Shown in pieces: positions 11,151-22,884 of a DNA stretch of 64,000 nt. The stretch is from positions 5,208,157 to 5,272,156 of the forward strand of contig NZ_ARVW01000001.1 of NCBI RefSeq assembly GCF_000384315.1, given 5' to 3'. This DNA comes from Amycolatopsis nigrescens CSC17Ta-90. GTDB taxonomy: Bacteria > Actinomycetota > Actinomycetes > Mycobacteriales > Pseudonocardiaceae. The first letter of the stretch is position 1; every line of letters starts with the position of its first letter. The position numbers were made by a program, and so were the translations under genes. The notes under the pieces are model-generated. The model had not been told where the DNA came from. It saw nothing but the letters and a program-made list of their open reading frames with translations, and did no database searches.

Positions 11151-13346
11151 TCACCCGGCGTTCACGGCCACCGCTCTGGTCTGCAGGCCGGCGCTCACCG
11201 CGGCCGCGACGGCGAACAGCGCGGTCAGCCCGTGCACCGCGAGTGCCACCTGATCTGGCACAGGTCCGCTGGTAGCTGACAACAACGGTGGCACACAGGC
11301 CAGCGCGGTGACCACCCAGGTGCTGGGCGCCGCGCCGTTGCCGATCCGCACCGCGTGCAGCAGGAAGACGCCGAGCAGCAACTGCACCAGGTTCTGGATC
11401 GGGTCCAGCTGCAGGCCGAGCATGGTGGCCCCGGTCTCGCCGCCGAACCTGGTCAGCGCGAATCCGAACACCCCGATGGTGGCGTAGCCGATGCCCAGCA
11501 CGACCCCGGCGTGCGCGAGCAGTGCGCCCAGCCGCCCGGCCGGCTGCGCGCCGATGAGCGACGGGCCAGGGCTGGCGGCGTGCCGTTCGAACCACCAGAA
11601 CACCAGTGCGGCCGGCCCGGCCAGCAGCGCCAGCGCGACCAGCGGCCGCGGCTCGGTGAGCCAGGTGAGCACGTCCATCAGCCGTCCCGGCAGGTAGACC
11701 AGCGCGACCAGCAGCAGCATGGCGGCCAGGAAACCGAGGTACAGGCTCATCGGGGCGCGCACCACCAGCCGGACCGCCACGATCAGACGCGGCCGTCCGG
11801 CCAGCGTGGCGAGGCGGCGCGCGAAGAGACCGGTCAGGCCGAGCTGCACCGCGCCGAGCAGCAGCACCGGCAGCGTGGCCGCGGACAGCGCGGGTGCCGC
11901 GGCGGGGTCGCCGAGCAGGGTCGGCGGGCCGGTCCCGGTCACGCTCAGCAGGACCAGCCCGGCGGCACCGGCGGCCGTGCCCGTCACCAGCCAGCCGGTC
12001 CGCACCCCGCGCCCGGCCTGCCAGAAGGCGAGTTGCTGGGCCAGCAGCGCCAGCCCGAACGCCCCGGCGTGGCGGGGCAGCGAAGAGTCGAGCCAGCCCG
12101 CGCCGAACTCGGCCAGCACCACCAGGCCGAGCAGCGCGGCCAGGGTGCTCCTCGGGGCCAGCCGGTGCAGTTTGAGCAGCGCCGGCGCGGCCACCATGGT
12201 CAGCAGGTAGACGCCGATCAGCCAGAGCGGGTGCAGCGCGATCCGCATCACGGTCGCGTTGGTGCCGGCCGGAATGCCAAGCAGCTCCAGCGCGAGCGGC
12301 ACCACCAGCGCCACCACCACGAAGATCAGCGCGGGACGCAGCAGCCGGCTCGCCCGGTGCGCCAGGTACTGGCGATAACCACCGCCCGCGTCCAGCTCGG
12401 CCTGCCAGCCCGCCGCGTTGGCCCGGCCGCAGGCGAAGAAGAACAGCGGCGCGAGCTGGGCCAGCCAGGTCAGCGGCCACAGCCACTCGTGGCCAGCCCC
12501 GGCCCAGTTGGCCAGCGCGATCGCGGACTCGCCGAGCACCAGCAGCACCATGCTGGCCGCACCGAGCATCGCCCACGGCGTGAGCGGCCGGGCAGCGGCG
12601 GTTTCGGCGGCGGTTCCCGCTGTCCGCACTGTCCGCGCTGCCCACGGCTGCGGTGCCGGGCGGACACGCCTGGCGCGCAGCCAGTCACGCAGCCGGAAGA
12701 CCAGCAGGCAGCCGATCACGACCACTCCGGCCAGCATCGGGCCGACCGGCTCGCCGACCGGCGGGCCCCAGCGCTGGTGCCAGGAGTTCACCACCAGCCC
12801 GGCGGTGTAGAGCGACGCGACCATCCCGCAGGTCTTCGCCGAGTCCATCGGATTGATCGAGCACATCGCGTGCATGTCCGCGGACAGCCGATCGTCCAAC
12901 GCGGCCCTGACCTGCTGACCCAGCGGCTGGCCCTGCTTTTCCGCGTACCGGAGCAGGTCGTAGCCGAGGTCGTGCGCCTTGCACGGCACCGCGTAGTCCC
13001 ACTTGCTGTTGTCCTCACCCCACGGCGTGGAGCAGCCGCCGTCCGTGTGCACCGCGCGCACCGTGCCGTCCCTGGCCGACATCGCACTCGGTGTGACGCC
13101 GGTCACCTGGGTGAAGTCGGCGGGCAGCTCGTTCAGCGCCTCGGCCGAAGGCCCGGGGTTCAGCAGTGCGTCCACCGCGCGCTGGGCGGCGGCCGGCCCG
13201 CCGGTCAGCGGGCCGTGCTCAATCGGGGCCGCGGAACGGGACGCGACCAGGCCGAACCCGATCACGACCAGTGCGAGCAACAGCATCCAGGCCGAGGTCC
13301 ACAGTGGCCGCCGGACGCGCGGAAGGGTCTCTGCGGTGGCGGTCAT
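11151..13346 (-). CDS. Phospholipase A2-like domain fused to acyltransferase-3-like membrane domain
   Basis: 731 residues from ATG 13346 (GGAGA just upstream; a GTG at 13373 without a site is less likely). After one N-terminal membrane helix comes an extracellular stretch. It contains CSTPWGEDNSKWDYAVPCKAHDLGY, matching the prokaryotic phospholipase A2 core Cys-x-x-His-Asp-x-x-Tyr, with His125-Asp126 as the catalytic dyad, followed by MHAMC. The protein then has about eleven further hydrophobic helices with the character of acyltransferase-3 (FFFACGRANAAGW, RASRLLRPAL, HPLWLIGVYLL). A lipid-cleaving ectodomain joined to a multi-pass acyl-transfer domain suggests deacylation and reacylation of envelope lipids. 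This is inference; no pathway neighbours support it. Confidence 0.75.
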   Translation of the reverse strand: MTATAETLPRVRRPLWTSAWMLLLALVVIGFGLVASRSAAPIEHGPLTGGPAAAQRAVDALLNPGPSAEALNELPADFTQVTGVTPSAMSARDGTVRAVHTDGGCSTPWGEDNSKWDYAVPCKAHDLGYDLLRYAEKQGQPLGQQVRAALDDRLSADMHAMCSINPMDSAKTCGMVASLYTAGLVVNSWHQRWGPPVGEPVGPMLAGVVVIGCLLVFRLRDWLRARRVRPAPQPWAARTVRTAGTAAETAAARPLTPWAMLGAASMVLLVLGESAIALANWAGAGHEWLWPLTWLAQLAPLFFFACGRANAAGWQAELDAGGGYRQYLAHRASRLLRPALIFVVVALVVPLALELLGIPAGTNATVMRIALHPLWLIGVYLLTMVAAPALLKLHRLAPRSTLAALLGLVVLAEFGAGWLDSSLPRHAGAFGLALLAQQLAFWQAGRGVRTGWLVTGTAAGAAGLVLLSVTGTGPPTLLGDPAAAPALSAATLPVLLLGAVQLGLTGLFARRLATLAGRPRLIVAVRLVVRAPMSLYLGFLAAMLLLVALVYLPGRLMDVLTWLTEPRPLVALALLAGPAALVFWWFERHAASPGPSLIGAQPAGRLGALLAHAGVVLGIGYATIGVFGFALTRFGGETGATMLGLQLDPIQNLVQLLLGVFLLHAVRIGNGAAPSTWVVTALACVPPLLSATSGPVPDQVALAVHGLTALFAVAAAVSAGLQTRAVAVNAG

Positions 13347-13403
13347 GCTCTCCAGGGTCCCAGGCCGGATCACGACCGGACATCCGGATATCCCCCGGTT
13401 GTG

Positions 13404-14840
13404 TCACGGGCTGTCCGGAGTGTCCGCCAGCTTCTCGGCCGCTATCCGCACCTGGTTGCGGCCGTTCTCCTTGGCTTCGTAGACCGCCGCGTCGGCGGCC
13501 TGCATCAGGATGTCCAAAGTGTCGCCGTGGTCCGGATAGACCGCGACGCCGATCGAAGTGGTGCGCCCGGCGATGGTGGTCTGCGCGCCGCGCTTGTCCG
13601 TGGTGACTATGCGCAGCTCGGCGATGGTGCCGCGGATTCGCTCCGCCGCGCCGGCCGCGGTGATCTCGTCGGTGTCCGGCAGCAGCACCAGGAACTCCTC
13701 GCCGCCGTACCGGCCGACCACGTCCGTCGGCCTGGTCGCCTCGTCTATCGCCTGCGCCACCCGGCGCAGCACGTCGTCCCCGGCGGGGTGGCCGTGCGAG
13801 TCGTTGATCCACTTGAAGTGGTCGAGGTCGATCATCAGCAGGGCGAGGTTGCCGCGCGATCTGGTCGCCCTGCCGAAGGCCCGCTCGGCGGACTCGCTCC
13901 AGCCCCGCATGTTGTAGACCGCGGTCTTGGGGTCGGTGCGCGCGTCGTTCTGCAACTGGTCAAGTTCGGCGAGCCGGTTGAACACGACGGTCACCACGGC
14001 CATGATCGCGACCGCCGGCGGCATGGTGATCAGCAGGATCGCGGTCACCGCGCCGAGCCCGGTGGTGATCGCTTCGAGAAGGTTGTCCGCCTTGCTTCCC
14101 AGGATGCTGGACAGGGTCGGCCTCGATGGGCCCGCCAATGAGAGGATGCCGCCCACGTAAACGATTTGCACGGCCTCGTAAACCAGCGCGGTGATGATTA
14201 ATGCCGCGAATTCCCGAAGGGAGCCCAATAGGGTGAGCGAGGACCAGACGTGCGGGCCGAGGGAGTCGAATGTCAGGTGCGCCAGCGATGCTGCCAGACA
14301 GTGGGAGACGGTGGAGTAGATGAAGTTGTGCGCCGGCCGGCGGGCGGTGAACCAGCGTTGTGCCCTGATGATCAGGATCAGCAGTACGGTGAGTTCCGCC
14401 GGAATGATCAATACCGCGGGGAAGACCCAGACCGCGGTGAGATCGATAAGCACCGTGCGGGTCCGGCTGCGCCGCCGCTCTTCCTGTCGCTGGGTTAGCT
14501 GGATATGTGCGGTTGCCCCCGCGGTCAAAATCGCGAAACCGAACCATTCCAACCGGTTCGGCAGTCCGGAGCCGGCGAACGCGAGCGCGAAACCCGGGAT
14601 TGAGAGGGCTTCCATCAGCAGCAGAAAGACGATGAACGGCTTCGGCCGCCGCCACAGCGCCCAGCCGCGGATGCCGGTCGGCTGTGCGCGCTCGACACTC
14701 GGTTCGTCACTCACCGAATCCGGCGGCCCCTGCTCCGAATGGGCGGACGTGACCTGCGGTTCGGTAACGGTGTCCTCACTCTCAGGCGTCGCGTCGCCGG
14801 GCGGAGGGGGCGGCGGTCGGTCGCGGGGTACGAGTGCCAC
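13404..14840 (-). CDS. Membrane-bound diguanylate cyclase (GGDEF)
   Basis: 478 residues. I use GTG at 14840 because AAAGGAGGT lies six bases before it; an ATG 21 bases upstream would bury that site inside the gene. After a Pro-rich head there are about six membrane helices (IVFLLLMEALSIPGFALAFAG, LIDLTAVWVFPAVLIIPAEL and others), resembling a MASE-like sensor. A GGDEF domain follows: TDPKTAVYNMRGW, LLMIDLDHFKWINDSHGHPAGDDVLRRVA and the active-site GGEEF. GGEEF is a functional variant, so c-di-GMP synthesis is expected. The input signal is unknown. Confidence 0.93.
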   Translation of the reverse strand: MALVPRDRPPPPPPGDATPESEDTVTEPQVTSAHSEQGPPDSVSDEPSVERAQPTGIRGWALWRRPKPFIVFLLLMEALSIPGFALAFAGSGLPNRLEWFGFAILTAGATAHIQLTQRQEERRRSRTRTVLIDLTAVWVFPAVLIIPAELTVLLILIIRAQRWFTARRPAHNFIYSTVSHCLAASLAHLTFDSLGPHVWSSLTLLGSLREFAALIITALVYEAVQIVYVGGILSLAGPSRPTLSSILGSKADNLLEAITTGLGAVTAILLITMPPAVAIMAVVTVVFNRLAELDQLQNDARTDPKTAVYNMRGWSESAERAFGRATRSRGNLALLMIDLDHFKWINDSHGHPAGDDVLRRVAQAIDEATRPTDVVGRYGGEEFLVLLPDTDEITAAGAAERIRGTIAELRIVTTDKRGAQTTIAGRTTSIGVAVYPDHGDTLDILMQAADAAVYEAKENGRNQVRIAAEKLADTPDSP

Positions 14841-15024
14841 TCGGCTACCTCCTTTCGACATCCGCCGCCGCGGTTGAGTAATCTCCCTGGTACCCGCTCG
14901 ACCGCCGTTCGCTTTCTGCGACCGGTATCATCTCATCGCACCGGATGTGTGTGTAGGCGAGGACGTAGCCCGAACTGCGGAGGCCGCTTCCTTGGACCGT
15001 GTGTACCGATCGGAGGTGCTTCCC

Positions 15025-15045
15025 GTGTCGGCTCGCGATTTCTGA
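15025..15045 (+). CDS. Hexapeptide ORF 1, MSARDF
   Basis: GTG TCG GCT CGC GAT TTC TGA, preceded by GGAGGTG (15012-15018) and a six-base spacer. The Arg codon CGC differs from the other units' CGT, a silent change. First unit of the array; its own promoter is not identified. Function unknown. Confidence 0.6.
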   Translation: MSARDF

Positions 15046-15097
15046 TCCCCTGCTGCGTCGAAGTTGTTCCGCCCCATTGCGAGAAGAGGTGTTCCGC

Positions 15098-15118
15098 GTG
15101 GCTGCTCGTGATTTCTGA
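15098..15118 (+). CDS. Hexapeptide ORF 2, MAARDF
   Basis: GTG GCT GCT CGT GAT TTC TGA, preceded by AAGAGGTG ending at 15091 and a six-base spacer. The second codon is Ala; codons 3-6 and the stop match the array consensus exactly. Function unknown. Confidence 0.6.
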   Translation: MAARDF

Positions 15119-15171
15119 TCTCGCCGGATGGCCCAATCCCGTCGTCTCGCGTTGCGCAGGAGGTGTTGAGC

Positions 15172-15192
15172 GTGCAGGCTCGTGATTTCTGA
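15172..15192 (+). CDS. Hexapeptide ORF 3, MQARDF
   Basis: GTG CAG GCT CGT GAT TTC TGA, preceded by AGGAGGTG (15158-15165), the best ribosome-binding site of the array, and a six-base spacer. The second residue is Gln here. Function unknown. Confidence 0.6.
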   Translation: MQARDF

Positions 15193-15245
15193 TCCGTCGC
15201 TCGTCGGTGAACGTGTTCCGCCCCGTTGTGAGAGAGGTGCCCACC

Positions 15246-15266
15246 GTGTCCGCTCGTGATTTCTGA
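15246..15266 (+). CDS. Hexapeptide ORF 4, MSARDF
   Basis: GTG TCC GCT CGT GAT TTC TGA, preceded by AGAGAGGTG (15231-15239) and a six-base spacer. It encodes the same peptide as unit 1 with different Ser and Arg codons, which argues for selection on the peptide rather than the DNA. Confidence 0.6.
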   Translation: MSARDF

Positions 15267-15315
15267 TCCGGCAACCGAACAAGTTTTCGAACCGGCCCAC
15301 AGGGAGGTGCTTTCG

Positions 15316-15336
15316 GTGACGGCCCGTGACTTCTGA
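15316..15336 (+). CDS. Hexapeptide ORF 5, MTARDF
   Basis: GTG ACG GCC CGT GAC TTC TGA, preceded by GGGAGGTG (15302-15309) and a six-base spacer. Both departures from consensus (GCC, GAC) are silent. Last unit of the array, 17 bases before a small hairpin. Confidence 0.6.
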   Translation: MTARDF

Positions 15337-15352
15337 TCTGGTTCCAACCCAA

Positions 15353-15370
15353 GACTCGGCAATTCGAGTC
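15353..15370. terminator. Short hairpin between the peptide array and the MFS gene
   Basis: GACTCG-GCAATT-CGAGTC, a perfect 6-base stem with a 6-base loop. It is 17 bases after the last peptide stop and about 38 bases beyond the convergent MFS stop, so it could act in either direction. There is no U-tract, and it is weak on its own. Confidence 0.4.
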
Positions 15371-15407
15371 GCCCGCCCGATACGCGCGGTAAGCGGTGCG
15401 ACATGAC

Positions 15408-16619
15408 TTACTCGGCTGTTTCGCTGTTCGCGGCGTTCACCCGGGACCAGGAGATCGCGACCGGGATGGCCAGCAGCACGCCGATCCCGCCCGCGATGGC
15501 GATCGCCGTGGTGGCGGACCCGGCCAGCTGCGCGATTATTCCGCCTAGAGCGACCCCGATGCCCTGTGCCACCCGGAGTCCGGTCCGGTACAGACCCCCA
15601 GCCCCGCCGCGAAGTTCGTTCGGCACCCAGGTGATGAACGTGGCGCTGACCGTGATCAGGTAGGCGCCGGTGGCTCCCGCGAGTGCCAGCAGTACCAGCG
15701 CGAGCGCGAGGTTGGGCTGGAAGATGAAGGCAACCAGCGTCAGCAGTGGCGCGATCGCCAGCACGCCGAGGATCCGGCGACGGGCGGCCGCCGAGAGGTA
15801 CCTGGAGAGCACGAAGGCGCCGACCACGAACCCCAGCGGGTCGGCGGCCAGCAGCCAGCCGACCGCGCCGTCCGAGGCGCCGATCTGATGGGCCAGCGGA
15901 GCCGCCAGGCCCTCCGGGATGACCGCCAGGCCGACCAGCCAGGAAAGCCCGATTAATACCCGGAGCCGGCGCTGCCGGGCCACCCAGCGGATCGCGCCGA
16001 ACCAGCCGTCGCCGGGGTTCCCCGCCGCCGGCCGCCGCCGCACCCACCGGCGCACCACCAGCGCGCTGACCAGGAAGCTGACCGCGTCGATGGCTAGTGC
16101 CCATGAGGTGCCGAGCTGTGCGACCAGCAGCCCACCGCCGGCGAGCCCGAGCAGCATCGCCGTGTTGGTGGTGATTCCCCGGATGTCCTGACTGCGCAGG
16201 TAGAGATCGTCATCGGTGAAAACCTCCCTGGTCAGCGCGTTCTGCGCGGCATTGCCGGGAGCGCCGACCAGCCGGGCGAGCACCACGATTATGCACAGCA
16301 CCGGCAGCGGCGTGCCCGGAATCGCCATCGCGCCGATCAGCACCGCCTGGATCACCGCGGAGAGGCTGAGCACGGTTCGCCGCGGGAAGCGGTCCGCGAG
16401 CTGGGCGAGCCCGAGCCCGCCGGCCAGCGCGGGCAGGAAGGTCAGCGAGTACACCACCGCGGACCAGAGGGCGGAGCCGGTCTGGCTGTAGACCATGATC
16501 GCCAGTGCGACCGTGGTGAGCTGGTCCCCGATCAGGGACTGCGCTTCGGCGAACCACAGGGCGCGGAACTCGGTGTTGCCGAGTGCGGCACTCATGGGCG
16601 GTCGCGTGTTGGTCTTCAC
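15408..16619 (-). CDS. MFS transporter
   Basis: 403 residues from GTG 16619; GGGGGAAG about ten bases upstream is the likely site. Around twelve hydrophobic helices, with the MFS loop motif ADRFPRR after helix 2 and a central cytoplasmic loop (VRRWVRRRPAAGNPGDGW). It resembles the enterobactin-exporter/macrolide-efflux-like MFS group (RALWFAEAQSLIGDQLTTVALAIMVY). The substrate is unknown; efflux is likely. Its 3' end faces the hexapeptide array, so the two are not co-transcribed, although an array transcript reading through would be antisense to it. Confidence 0.9.
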   Translation of the reverse strand: MKTNTRPPMSAALGNTEFRALWFAEAQSLIGDQLTTVALAIMVYSQTGSALWSAVVYSLTFLPALAGGLGLAQLADRFPRRTVLSLSAVIQAVLIGAMAIPGTPLPVLCIIVVLARLVGAPGNAAQNALTREVFTDDDLYLRSQDIRGITTNTAMLLGLAGGGLLVAQLGTSWALAIDAVSFLVSALVVRRWVRRRPAAGNPGDGWFGAIRWVARQRRLRVLIGLSWLVGLAVIPEGLAAPLAHQIGASDGAVGWLLAADPLGFVVGAFVLSRYLSAAARRRILGVLAIAPLLTLVAFIFQPNLALALVLLALAGATGAYLITVSATFITWVPNELRGGAGGLYRTGLRVAQGIGVALGGIIAQLAGSATTAIAIAGGIGVLLAIPVAISWSRVNAANSETAE

Positions 16620-20729: not shown

Positions 20730-22790
20730 TCACGGCACGTTGAGGTTGGGGAGTGGGCCGAGGTGGCCGCGGGCGTGCAGGGCGAGGAAGGCGGTGACGA
20801 CGTCCGGGTCGTACCGCGAGCCGCGGCCGGTCCGCAGTTCGCGCGCGGCGTCCTCCTCCGCCATGGCGGGCTGGTAGACGCGGTCGGCCAGCATCGCGGC
20901 CCAGGAGTCGCAGACGGCCACGATGCGCGCTTCGATCCGGATGCCGGTGCCGGCGATCCCGTCCGGGTAGCCGGTGCCGTCGAACCGTTCGTGGTGCTGC
21001 CGGACCACCTCGGCGACCTCGCCGAGCCCCGGCACCGAGCCGACCAGCGCGGCGCCGTGGCCGGGATGGCGGCGGACCAGCTCCCATTCCGGTTCGGACA
21101 GTGCGCCCGGTTTGGTCCAGACCCCGGCCGGGATCAGCGCCTTGCCCACGTCGTGCAGCCGGCCGGCCAGCTCCGCCCGCCGCGCGGCCGTCGGGTCGAG
21201 GCCGAGCGAACGGGCCACCTGCCCGGCCCAGCGCCCCACCGCCCGGCTGTGCTCGTGCCCGGACACCCACGAGTCCACCTCGTCGGCCAGCGCGACCAGG
21301 TCCAGTGACGGCTCCGGCAGCTCGCCGTGCTGCCCCTTCGCCGGCACGACCTGGTCGCGGCCGTGCGCCTTGGCCGCGTACAGCGCGCGGTCGGCGGCGG
21401 TGACCAGTTCGGCGGGAGTGCTGCCGTGCAACGGATAGCTCGCCGTGCCCAGCGAGATGGTGACGTCCAGCCAGGTGTCGCCGGAGACCACGATCGGCCG
21501 TTCGGCGACCTGGCGGCGCAGCCGTTCGGCGATCAGCGCCGGTTCGTCGCGGCCGATGTCGCGGATCAGCACGGCGAACTCCTCACCGCCGTAGCGGGCC
21601 AGCAGGTCGCTGTCGCGGGTTGCCTCCTTCAGCCGCTCCGCGATCTCGGTCAGCACCTTGTCGCCGGCCGGGTGGCCGTAGCGGTCGTTGACCGACTTGA
21701 AGCGGTCCACGTCCGCGATCAGCACGGCCAGCCCGCCGTGCGCGCGGTGCGCCCTGGTGACCTCCACGGCGAGCTGGTGCTCGAAATGGCGGCGGGTGCG
21801 CAGGCCGGTCAGCGCGTCGGTGATGGCGAGCCGGCGCTGTTCGCTGACCAGCCCGGCCAGCCGCGCGATGGTGAGCACGAACAGCACCGCGCAGGCGCAG
21901 GCGGCGACCGGGATGTCCGGGTAGGAACCGTTGGCGTACTGGATGAGCAGGACCGCGGGGGCGATCAGCGCGGCCGCGCAGAGCCCGGCGATCCGGCCGG
22001 GGCCCGGCGCGGGCGCGGCTTCTTCAGCCTGTTCGGCGATCTTGCCCATCGCCGGGTGCAGCGCGGCCGCACCGAGCGCCAGGTTGCCGGAAAGCCAGAT
22101 CGCGTCCAGGAAGTTGCCCGCGCCGTAGGTGCCGTTGAGCTGCTGGAAGACATAGATGCTGTCCGCGGCGAGGAACGCGAGCAGGTTCGTGGACAGCAGG
22201 AAGAACGGCACCGGCCGCGGCCCGGTGCCGAGGATCAGCCGCAGGGCCACGGCGAACATGGCCAGGTCCATCATCGGATAGCCGACCGACACGATCTTCA
22301 CCAGCGCGGGTGAGTCGGCCTGCGCCTGCGGCGCGATCAGGTAGAGCCAGGACAGCATCCCGGCGACCACCGCGAGCAGTGCGGCGTCGAGCAGCCCCGG
22401 CAGGTCGCGGCCAGGGGAGCGCAGCCGGATCAGCGCGACCAGGCCGGCCACCACCAGCGGGTAGTGCGACAGGTAGAGGACGTCGGCCGGAGCCGGGAAG
22501 GAGGTGTCGCCGAGTACGAAGTGCGAGACGTAGAAGCCGGTGTCGGCGGTCGAGTAGATCAGCTGGCTGGCGCCGAGCAGGATCCACGGCAGCGGCGCGG
22601 CGGGCCGGTTCCGCAGGCAGCCGTAGAGCACGGCGACCGCGGCCGAGATGCTCACCGCGCAGTACAGCCCGACCCGGACCGCGGCCGGCGCGCCGGCCGC
22701 GACGGTGACGTAGTACGCGGCCATGGTGAGCAGACCGCCGGCCAGGTAGCCGGACCACAGCCAGCGGCCGGACGCCGGCTTCCTGATCAC
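20730..22790 (-). CDS. GGDEF and HD-GYP hybrid c-di-GMP enzyme, membrane bound
   Basis: 686 residues from GTG 22790, with GAAGGGA upstream. About nine N-terminal membrane helices (residues ~10-300), then a GGDEF domain: TDALTGLRTRRHFEHQL, VLIADVDRFKSVNDRYGHPAGDKVL and active GGEEF. A C-terminal HD-GYP phosphodiesterase domain follows: RLHDVGKALIPAGV, HPGHGAALVGS, and HHERFDGTGYPDG, the defining HHE-x-x-DG-x-GYP. Both active sites look intact, so it may make and break c-di-GMP depending on signal. HD-GYP domains are uncommon in Actinobacteria. The 5' leader has two hairpins (22814-22884). Confidence 0.94.
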   Translation of the reverse strand: MIRKPASGRWLWSGYLAGGLLTMAAYYVTVAAGAPAAVRVGLYCAVSISAAVAVLYGCLRNRPAAPLPWILLGASQLIYSTADTGFYVSHFVLGDTSFPAPADVLYLSHYPLVVAGLVALIRLRSPGRDLPGLLDAALLAVVAGMLSWLYLIAPQAQADSPALVKIVSVGYPMMDLAMFAVALRLILGTGPRPVPFFLLSTNLLAFLAADSIYVFQQLNGTYGAGNFLDAIWLSGNLALGAAALHPAMGKIAEQAEEAAPAPGPGRIAGLCAAALIAPAVLLIQYANGSYPDIPVAACACAVLFVLTIARLAGLVSEQRRLAITDALTGLRTRRHFEHQLAVEVTRAHRAHGGLAVLIADVDRFKSVNDRYGHPAGDKVLTEIAERLKEATRDSDLLARYGGEEFAVLIRDIGRDEPALIAERLRRQVAERPIVVSGDTWLDVTISLGTASYPLHGSTPAELVTAADRALYAAKAHGRDQVVPAKGQHGELPEPSLDLVALADEVDSWVSGHEHSRAVGRWAGQVARSLGLDPTAARRAELAGRLHDVGKALIPAGVWTKPGALSEPEWELVRRHPGHGAALVGSVPGLGEVAEVVRQHHERFDGTGYPDGIAGTGIRIEARIVAVCDSWAAMLADRVYQPAMAEEDAARELRTGRGSRYDPDVVTAFLALHARGHLGPLPNLNVP

Positions 22791-22813
22791 GTTGTTCCCT
22801 TCTGGCGCTGCCC

Positions 22814-22884
22814 GGTGGGATGGAGAGGATCCCACCCGAGGGCTACAAGTTAGAAAGCCCCTCCCGGTGGTAGCCGAAGAGGGG
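22814..22884 (-). promoter_or_regulatory. Two hairpins in the leader of the GGDEF/HD-GYP gene
   Basis: Hairpin one pairs GGTGGGAT (22814-22821) with ATCCCACC (22829-22836) around seven bases. Hairpin two pairs CCCCTC (22858-22863) with GAGGGG (22879-22884). They lie 24-94 bases upstream of the gene's GTG. The sequence does not match the c-di-GMP riboswitch consensus as I remember it, so the structure is unassigned. Confidence 0.4.

Follow-up and report, generated by a model that had tools for sequence, protein, structure and literature searches.

The window analysed here, a stretch of 64,000 nucleotides from Amycolatopsis nigrescens CSC17Ta-90, contains an array of very short genes that fills the 546-base intergenic stretch 14862-15407 between a gene with a GGDEF domain and an MFS gene (Table 1). 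The array reads away from the GGDEF gene and toward the 3' end of the MFS gene, and no plus-strand gene with a domain hit follows it before 17010 in the window. The preliminary description of this DNA had reported five units, and the pattern GAGGTG-N6-GTG-NNN-GCN-CGN-GAY-TTC-TGA indeed matches exactly five times, at the plus-strand positions given in Table 1. The spacing, stated there as 70-74 bases, measures 73, 74, 74 and 70. The variable codon encodes Ser, Ala, Gln, Ser and Thr in units 1 to 5, and the three base differences within the conserved codons (CGC/CGT, GCC/GCT and GAC/GAT) are all silent, both as had been described. With three mismatches tolerated, the unit pattern had no match in 100 dinucleotide-preserving shuffles, and a genome-wide pattern search found only the five copies of MSARDF-type units at 15013-15336 in the whole 9.11 Mb genome. 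The first unit is set in the conserved context CGATCGGAGGTG (15007-15018), and unit 3 has an extra in-frame start (TTG) six bases upstream. Identity between the window units extends beyond the stop codon (TGATCY in all five), which is not general in the arrays of relatives.

Table 1 Features of the array locus, in window positions.
Feature	Position	Strand	Basis
Membrane diguanylate cyclase (DGC; GGEEF, RxxD), proposed receptor	13404..14861	-	Pfam GGDEF, motif, about 6 hydrophobic helices
Conserved box GGTATCATC, candidate -10 element of array promoter	14924..14932	+	Alignment; inferred
Unit 1: SD, N6, GTG start, MSARDF, TGA	15013..15045	+	Pattern match
Unit 2: MAARDF	15086..15118	+	Pattern match
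Unit 3: MQARDF	15160..15192	+	Pattern match
Unit 4: MSARDF	15234..15266	+	Pattern match
Unit 5: MTARDF	15304..15336	+	Pattern match
Six-pair perfect hairpin after last unit, possible terminator (weak)	15353..15370		Stem search
MFS transporter, proposed exporter, convergent with array	15408..16619	-	Pfam MFS_1 and MFS_3

Of 109 regions, 51 have the conserved box GGTATCATC, plausibly the -10 element of the array, in the 300 nt that precede unit 1, and none has it in the 900 nt downstream. The box lies 72-186 bases ahead of the first unit's start (in the window, 101) and occurs in eight genera, chiefly g1, g15 and g26, the other genera being without it. A sigma-70 scan returned no promoter for the array, and nothing in Rfam matched within it. 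The best stems 3' of the last unit reached 5.06 versus 4.64 in shuffles (n = 109 regions), without clear enrichment. Beside the DGC start, at 14874-14894, are TTGAGTAATCTC and GGTACC, which are partly kept in relatives and are perhaps the promoter or operator of the DGC itself. Elsewhere in the window are an acyltransferase-3 domain protein with a phospholipase A2-like domain ahead of it (11151-13373, minus strand), a relative of which lies near 16 of 31 loci of the same family, and a second c-di-GMP protein with GGDEF and HD domains (20730-22835, minus strand), about 5 kb from the array.

To describe the relatives, we use f1 for the window's own family, f34, f24 and f21 for other actinomycete families, and g, G and L for genera, genomes and loci. 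The pattern of the preliminary description, exact or with a looser start or spacer, found nothing related outside its own genome in 80 genomes of the genus and 249 of the family; in the contigs of 84,980 species' genomes it gave four lone, unrelated matches, all in non-actinomycete records, and in viral contigs none. Variation at residue 3 and at the final residue explains why it misses the relatives. X-ARDF is not the family motif: this exact peptide is private to the genome, but the array is not. Searching relatives with the GGDEF gene gave a short-ORF array in the same position and orientation at 20 of 20 loci (the window and its 19 best relatives), with peptides including MSNRDF, MSSRDF, MSSRDW, M[A/T]GRDY and M[S/A]DRDF. 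More distant GGDEF orthologs are accompanied by MRDREA, MSDRAW, MxDRDL, MRDRDM, M[L/M]DREY, MRNREW and others, in some cases as single units, and the hexapeptides of the family mostly take the form (f)M-x-[D/S/G/N/A/V]-R-[D/E/A]-[F/W/Y/L/M/A]. Arrays in relatives hold 1-23 units.

A motif-relaxed pattern for tandem pairs matched 59 of the family's 249 genomes, which belong to 11 of its 46 genera, and its reversed control matched none of the 249. Among the matches listed, which were paired by eye, all 59 genomes have one within about 2 kb of an independently located DGC. The hexapeptide tandem pattern had no match outside the family in 391 genomes of the class. Ten of 245 other genomes of the class, all from family f34, contain relatives of the membrane part of the DGC (E up to 1e-15), and tandem short ORFs lie upstream of the DGC at 9 of 11 f34 loci, encoding MRANSWD, MRDNNWN, MRGNSWD, MRDNTWT, MRD[V/S]NWT and an octapeptide pair MRDAHW..; the f34 DGC loci L211 and L212 have no array. 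The same layout was found in f34, f24 and f21 with heptapeptides such as MRDTTWS, MRDNTWT and MRGNSWD. A heptapeptide tandem pattern matched 31 of 296 class genomes, of which, judged by eye, 17 f34 genomes (22 had been searched) and a single genome each from f24 and f21 are real and 12 are chance; the reversed control matched one genome, G380. A divergent GGDEF gene adjoins the array at all 20 array loci fetched from other families, that of L254 being a fragment at a contig end. A phylum-wide profile search with the membrane domain found only the own genome among 149, a sample that listed no f34 genome. At L066, L070 and L088 (g15, g24 and g20) the sequence CTAGAAC directly follows the first unit, with CTAGAAA in L069 and CTACAAC in L082 as its counterparts.

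The preliminary description had taken the silent-only differences as a sign of translation and selection on the peptide and had proposed counting silent and non-silent changes in homologous arrays. We performed this count on a set of 526 units from 133 regions, leaving out a single-unit call in G110 that looked false. Between adjacent non-identical units, and at codons not used for picking units, position 3 of the hexamers shows 59 silent versus 1 non-silent change (194 comparisons; silent share by chance 0.19), and the heptamers show 38 silent versus 5 non-silent changes (220 comparisons). A count over all core codons, 303 silent to 7 non-silent, overstates the ratio, since units had been selected by their final three residues. 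Serine codons are swapped between AGC and TCC, each of which needs several base changes, and start codons (ATG 311, GTG 187, TTG 28) and stop codons (TGA 509, TAA 12, TAG 5) interchange. Of the N6 spacer bases ahead of the start, 49% of sites differ between adjacent units. Position 2 is relaxed (56 silent and 94 non-silent changes) and is uniform in 30 of the 83 arrays with at least two hexamers; position 3 is uniform within 82 of these 83, and its residue varies between lineages. Of 73 arrays with at least three units, 12 contain decayed-looking cores, at 27 places in all, although some are intact copies that were not called.

The strand of the array was compared with its opposite in 117 f1 regions upstream of DGCs. 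Units were found on the array strand in 109 regions, with at least two in 87, and on the opposite strand in 3, with two or more in none; 8 regions had no units. The figure of 109 of 117 is no prevalence, because of how the regions were chosen: 80 were new loci from the higher-scoring part of the DGC list, 19 were the best DGC hits in the genus, 17 were fetched mostly for their arrays and one was the window. The mostly silent changes and conserved peptides in the relatives bear out the proposal of peptide-level selection over a mere DNA repeat. We infer translation from these codon patterns, and the units are very probably micropeptide genes in multiple copies that are translated and under selection.

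The two neighbouring genes, which the preliminary description had passed over, differ in how closely they accompany the arrays. The DGC of the window has a GGDEF domain at residues 308-470 (1.4e-44). GGEEF was found in it and at 77 of 79 loci, and RxxD at 74 of 79; the enzyme therefore looks active, judged from its motifs. Its first 300 residues matched no Pfam family and contain about six hydrophobic helices, with four to seven in the ten DGCs inspected. The MFS protein is weakly similar to an H+ antiporter family and to EntS (5.8e-16), both far below curated cut-offs. When ORFs were clustered at 45 selected array loci from two families, GGDEF was present at 45 and MFS at 43, and among the 16 most widespread gene families listed these alone were common to both families. 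The MFS gene lies on the DGC strand at 60 of the 64 loci with an MFS hit, including L253, where it is on the far side of the DGC, and the exceptions are four g45 loci. At L077 (g45; 9632-7121, minus strand), the MFS gene follows the array co-directionally, in contrast to the usual convergent layout. No MFS was found near eight fetched unit-bearing loci (G179, G108, G111, G122, G210, G275, G085 and G123). Because of these eight loci and the different place of the MFS in g45, the DGC is the tighter partner of the array. The membrane domain is not confined to the array system, since three DGC paralogs of the own genome that share it (L272, L273 and L274; C1:4553458, 8160131 and 1579127) have no array in the 1.5 kb upstream.

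Genomes with more than one array suggest how peptide and DGC are paired. Six f34 genomes carry two cassettes each, with different peptides and a separate DGC and MFS per cassette, and the DGCs linked to MRGNSWD and to MRD..W. form separate clades, as do their MFSs. G351 (L251-L255) carries five arrays of two units each, with five heptapeptides (MRGNNWT, MRSVQWA, MRGVNWV, MRGVKWA and MRGADWA/C) and five DGCs. Taken as a whole, the sequence comparisons support coding, selection on the peptide, linkage to the DGC and multiplication of peptide/DGC units with distinct peptides.

In the three g1 genomes that have -REA peptides, the membrane domain of the DGC shares 42-44% identity with that of the window, against 55-65% in the other g1 rows, and the MFS 67-69%, against 66-74%. 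Trees were built with the LG+G4 model on proteins whose starts came from ORFs called by an SD rule; such starts were over-extended upstream across the array in g45 and at some f34/f24 loci, probably including L252, L257 and L270, which is why the g45 labels in the tree show no units. The REA g1 DGCs fall in a clade (100/98) with those of g4 and g28, which go with REA, RAW and REY peptides. The MFS data reject this grouping with g4/g28 (p 2.2e-4), as well as REA g1 with g4 (p 1.5e-6), and the MFS tree places the three REA g1 loci weakly (84/71) beside the RDF core. The case for a peptide that tracks its DGC is no more than suggestive, because a species-like arrangement is compatible with the DGC data (not rejected, p 0.11), the species-like set named beforehand is rejected by the MFS data, too (p 0.0012), and the REA-linked DGCs alone do not form a single clade in their tree.

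In combination, the copy number, the residues that are uniform within arrays and specific to lineages, the private membrane DGC and the MFS point to a peptide signal that is converted to c-di-GMP. The array would be a stand-alone transcript, started from the conserved box, of several tiny genes for an identical or near-identical leaderless hexapeptide, whose dosage would rise with copy number. The adjacent MFS would probably export the peptide, and the peptide would be the private ligand of the DGC encoded head-to-head with the array, whose membrane domain would sense it and change the c-di-GMP output, so that the whole may form a self-signalling cassette of the quorum type. We put a leaderless peptide signal of high dosage, which its own DGC would read and the MFS would probably export, at slightly under an even chance. 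Somewhat more tentative is the wider reading, that penta- to heptapeptide gene arrays are private pheromones, each converted directly to c-di-GMP by its own membrane DGC; it is with the same reserve, as part of this joint reading, that some genomes may run several such channels side by side, five in one. A signalling peptide was among the roles suggested in the preliminary description, and it fits best the context of an adjoining DGC and usually an MFS; the lineage-varying, array-uniform position 3 also resembles pheromone types.

Several known systems share features with these arrays. RRNPP, arbitrium and SHP/Rgg peptides are processed from longer precursors that are exported, and they are sensed by regulators in the cytosol. 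The arrays are like them in 5-7-residue active peptides, lineage-specific residues and one neighbouring receptor gene each, as proposed here, and unlike them in that each peptide is its own gene of 5-7 codons, in 1-23 copies, beside a membrane DGC. The units are complete ORFs with their own SD and stop, not precursors with an export signal, and no cytosolic TPR/HTH receptor is among the 16 gene families listed at the 45 loci; an XRE gene lies 6 kb from the array in the window and near only 15 of 31 f1 loci. Phenol-soluble modulins, which are amphipathic peptides of 20 or more residues, likewise come from several short leaderless genes in a row, with unrelated sequences. Microcin C has a single precursor gene, needs the nucleotide-adding enzyme MccB and has an MFS exporter, MccC. 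Its precursor gene mccA encodes a formylated heptapeptide, and its short length is reported to favour production and is related to reiterative ribosomal synthesis (PMC6495379). Heptapeptide-size genes with an MFS nearby are common to both systems, and the multi-copy arrays are not. The 18 bp biarylitide gene encodes an entire five-residue precursor, evades gene callers and works with a dedicated cytochrome P450; its gene size is close to that of our 5-7 codons, whereas the shared gene families at array loci include no P450 and biarylitide genes are not known to form arrays or to go with a DGC. In Streptomyces coelicolor, a BldK-imported small oligopeptide signal controls development (PMC11303876); this is also a small actinomycete oligopeptide but one taken up by an ABC transporter. 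A search of open-licence papers found no description of arrays of this type, and the array with its DGC looks like an undescribed peptide-signalling system.

The main rival is an intracellular ligand: the peptides would not leave the cell but would adjust the activity of the DGC by binding to it, or else bind c-di-GMP or another protein, with another substrate for the MFS. The units have no signal sequence, which counts against export and suits this role equally well; moreover, it is the DGC that constantly accompanies the arrays, eight unit-bearing loci have no MFS nearby, and the two protein trees conflict over the REA loci. The absent MFSs and the three array-less paralogs also weigh against the DGC-ligand reading. 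An MFS shared by two families, with one for each cassette, is nevertheless more than an intracellular regulator needs, and lineage-specific residues resemble signal specificity, and we consider this rival rather unlikely. A role as precursors of a modified, secreted compound, like biarylitide or microcin C, with the DGC as a regulator only, is less probable still: gene size and the nearby MFS exporter agree with it, while no modifying enzyme is found among the gene families common to the 45 loci, and one DGC per array, five in G351, exceeds what a regulator requires.

The peptide could also matter less than its translation or its DNA. As an attenuation device, the small ORFs would be ribosome-binding or stalling sites controlling a gene on the same transcript, for which their strong SD sites and the co-directional MFS of L077 speak. 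A multi-copy attenuator, another of the roles first suggested, is disfavoured because, in the window as in most relatives, the gene that comes next runs toward the array; with the MFS on the DGC strand in 60 of 64 loci, no co-directional gene directly follows the array there. The peptides also differ wholly between families under an unchanged layout, and we regard such a device as very improbable. Even harder to credit are repeats that serve as sites where a protein regulating the divergent DGC would bind, with incidental reading frames. Their regular spacing between divergent promoters and the TGATCY shared by the window units would suit such sites, but the silent-only pattern, the AGC/TCC swaps and the interchange of starts and stops would not, and the post-stop sequence is not kept in relatives.

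The signal of a private peptide for each DGC, as preferred here, would bear on a long-standing question, the signals of orphan membrane DGCs. Genes so small easily escape annotation, yet these are conserved, reach 23 copies, are tied to one enzyme class and span four actinomycete families. The cassettes name, by sequence, a candidate ligand for each of dozens of DGCs, and the multi-cassette genomes come with specificity controls of their own; since synthetic hexapeptides cost little, the idea is directly testable. If true, this would be a new kind of bacterial communication, in which the level of a peptide is converted straight to c-di-GMP.
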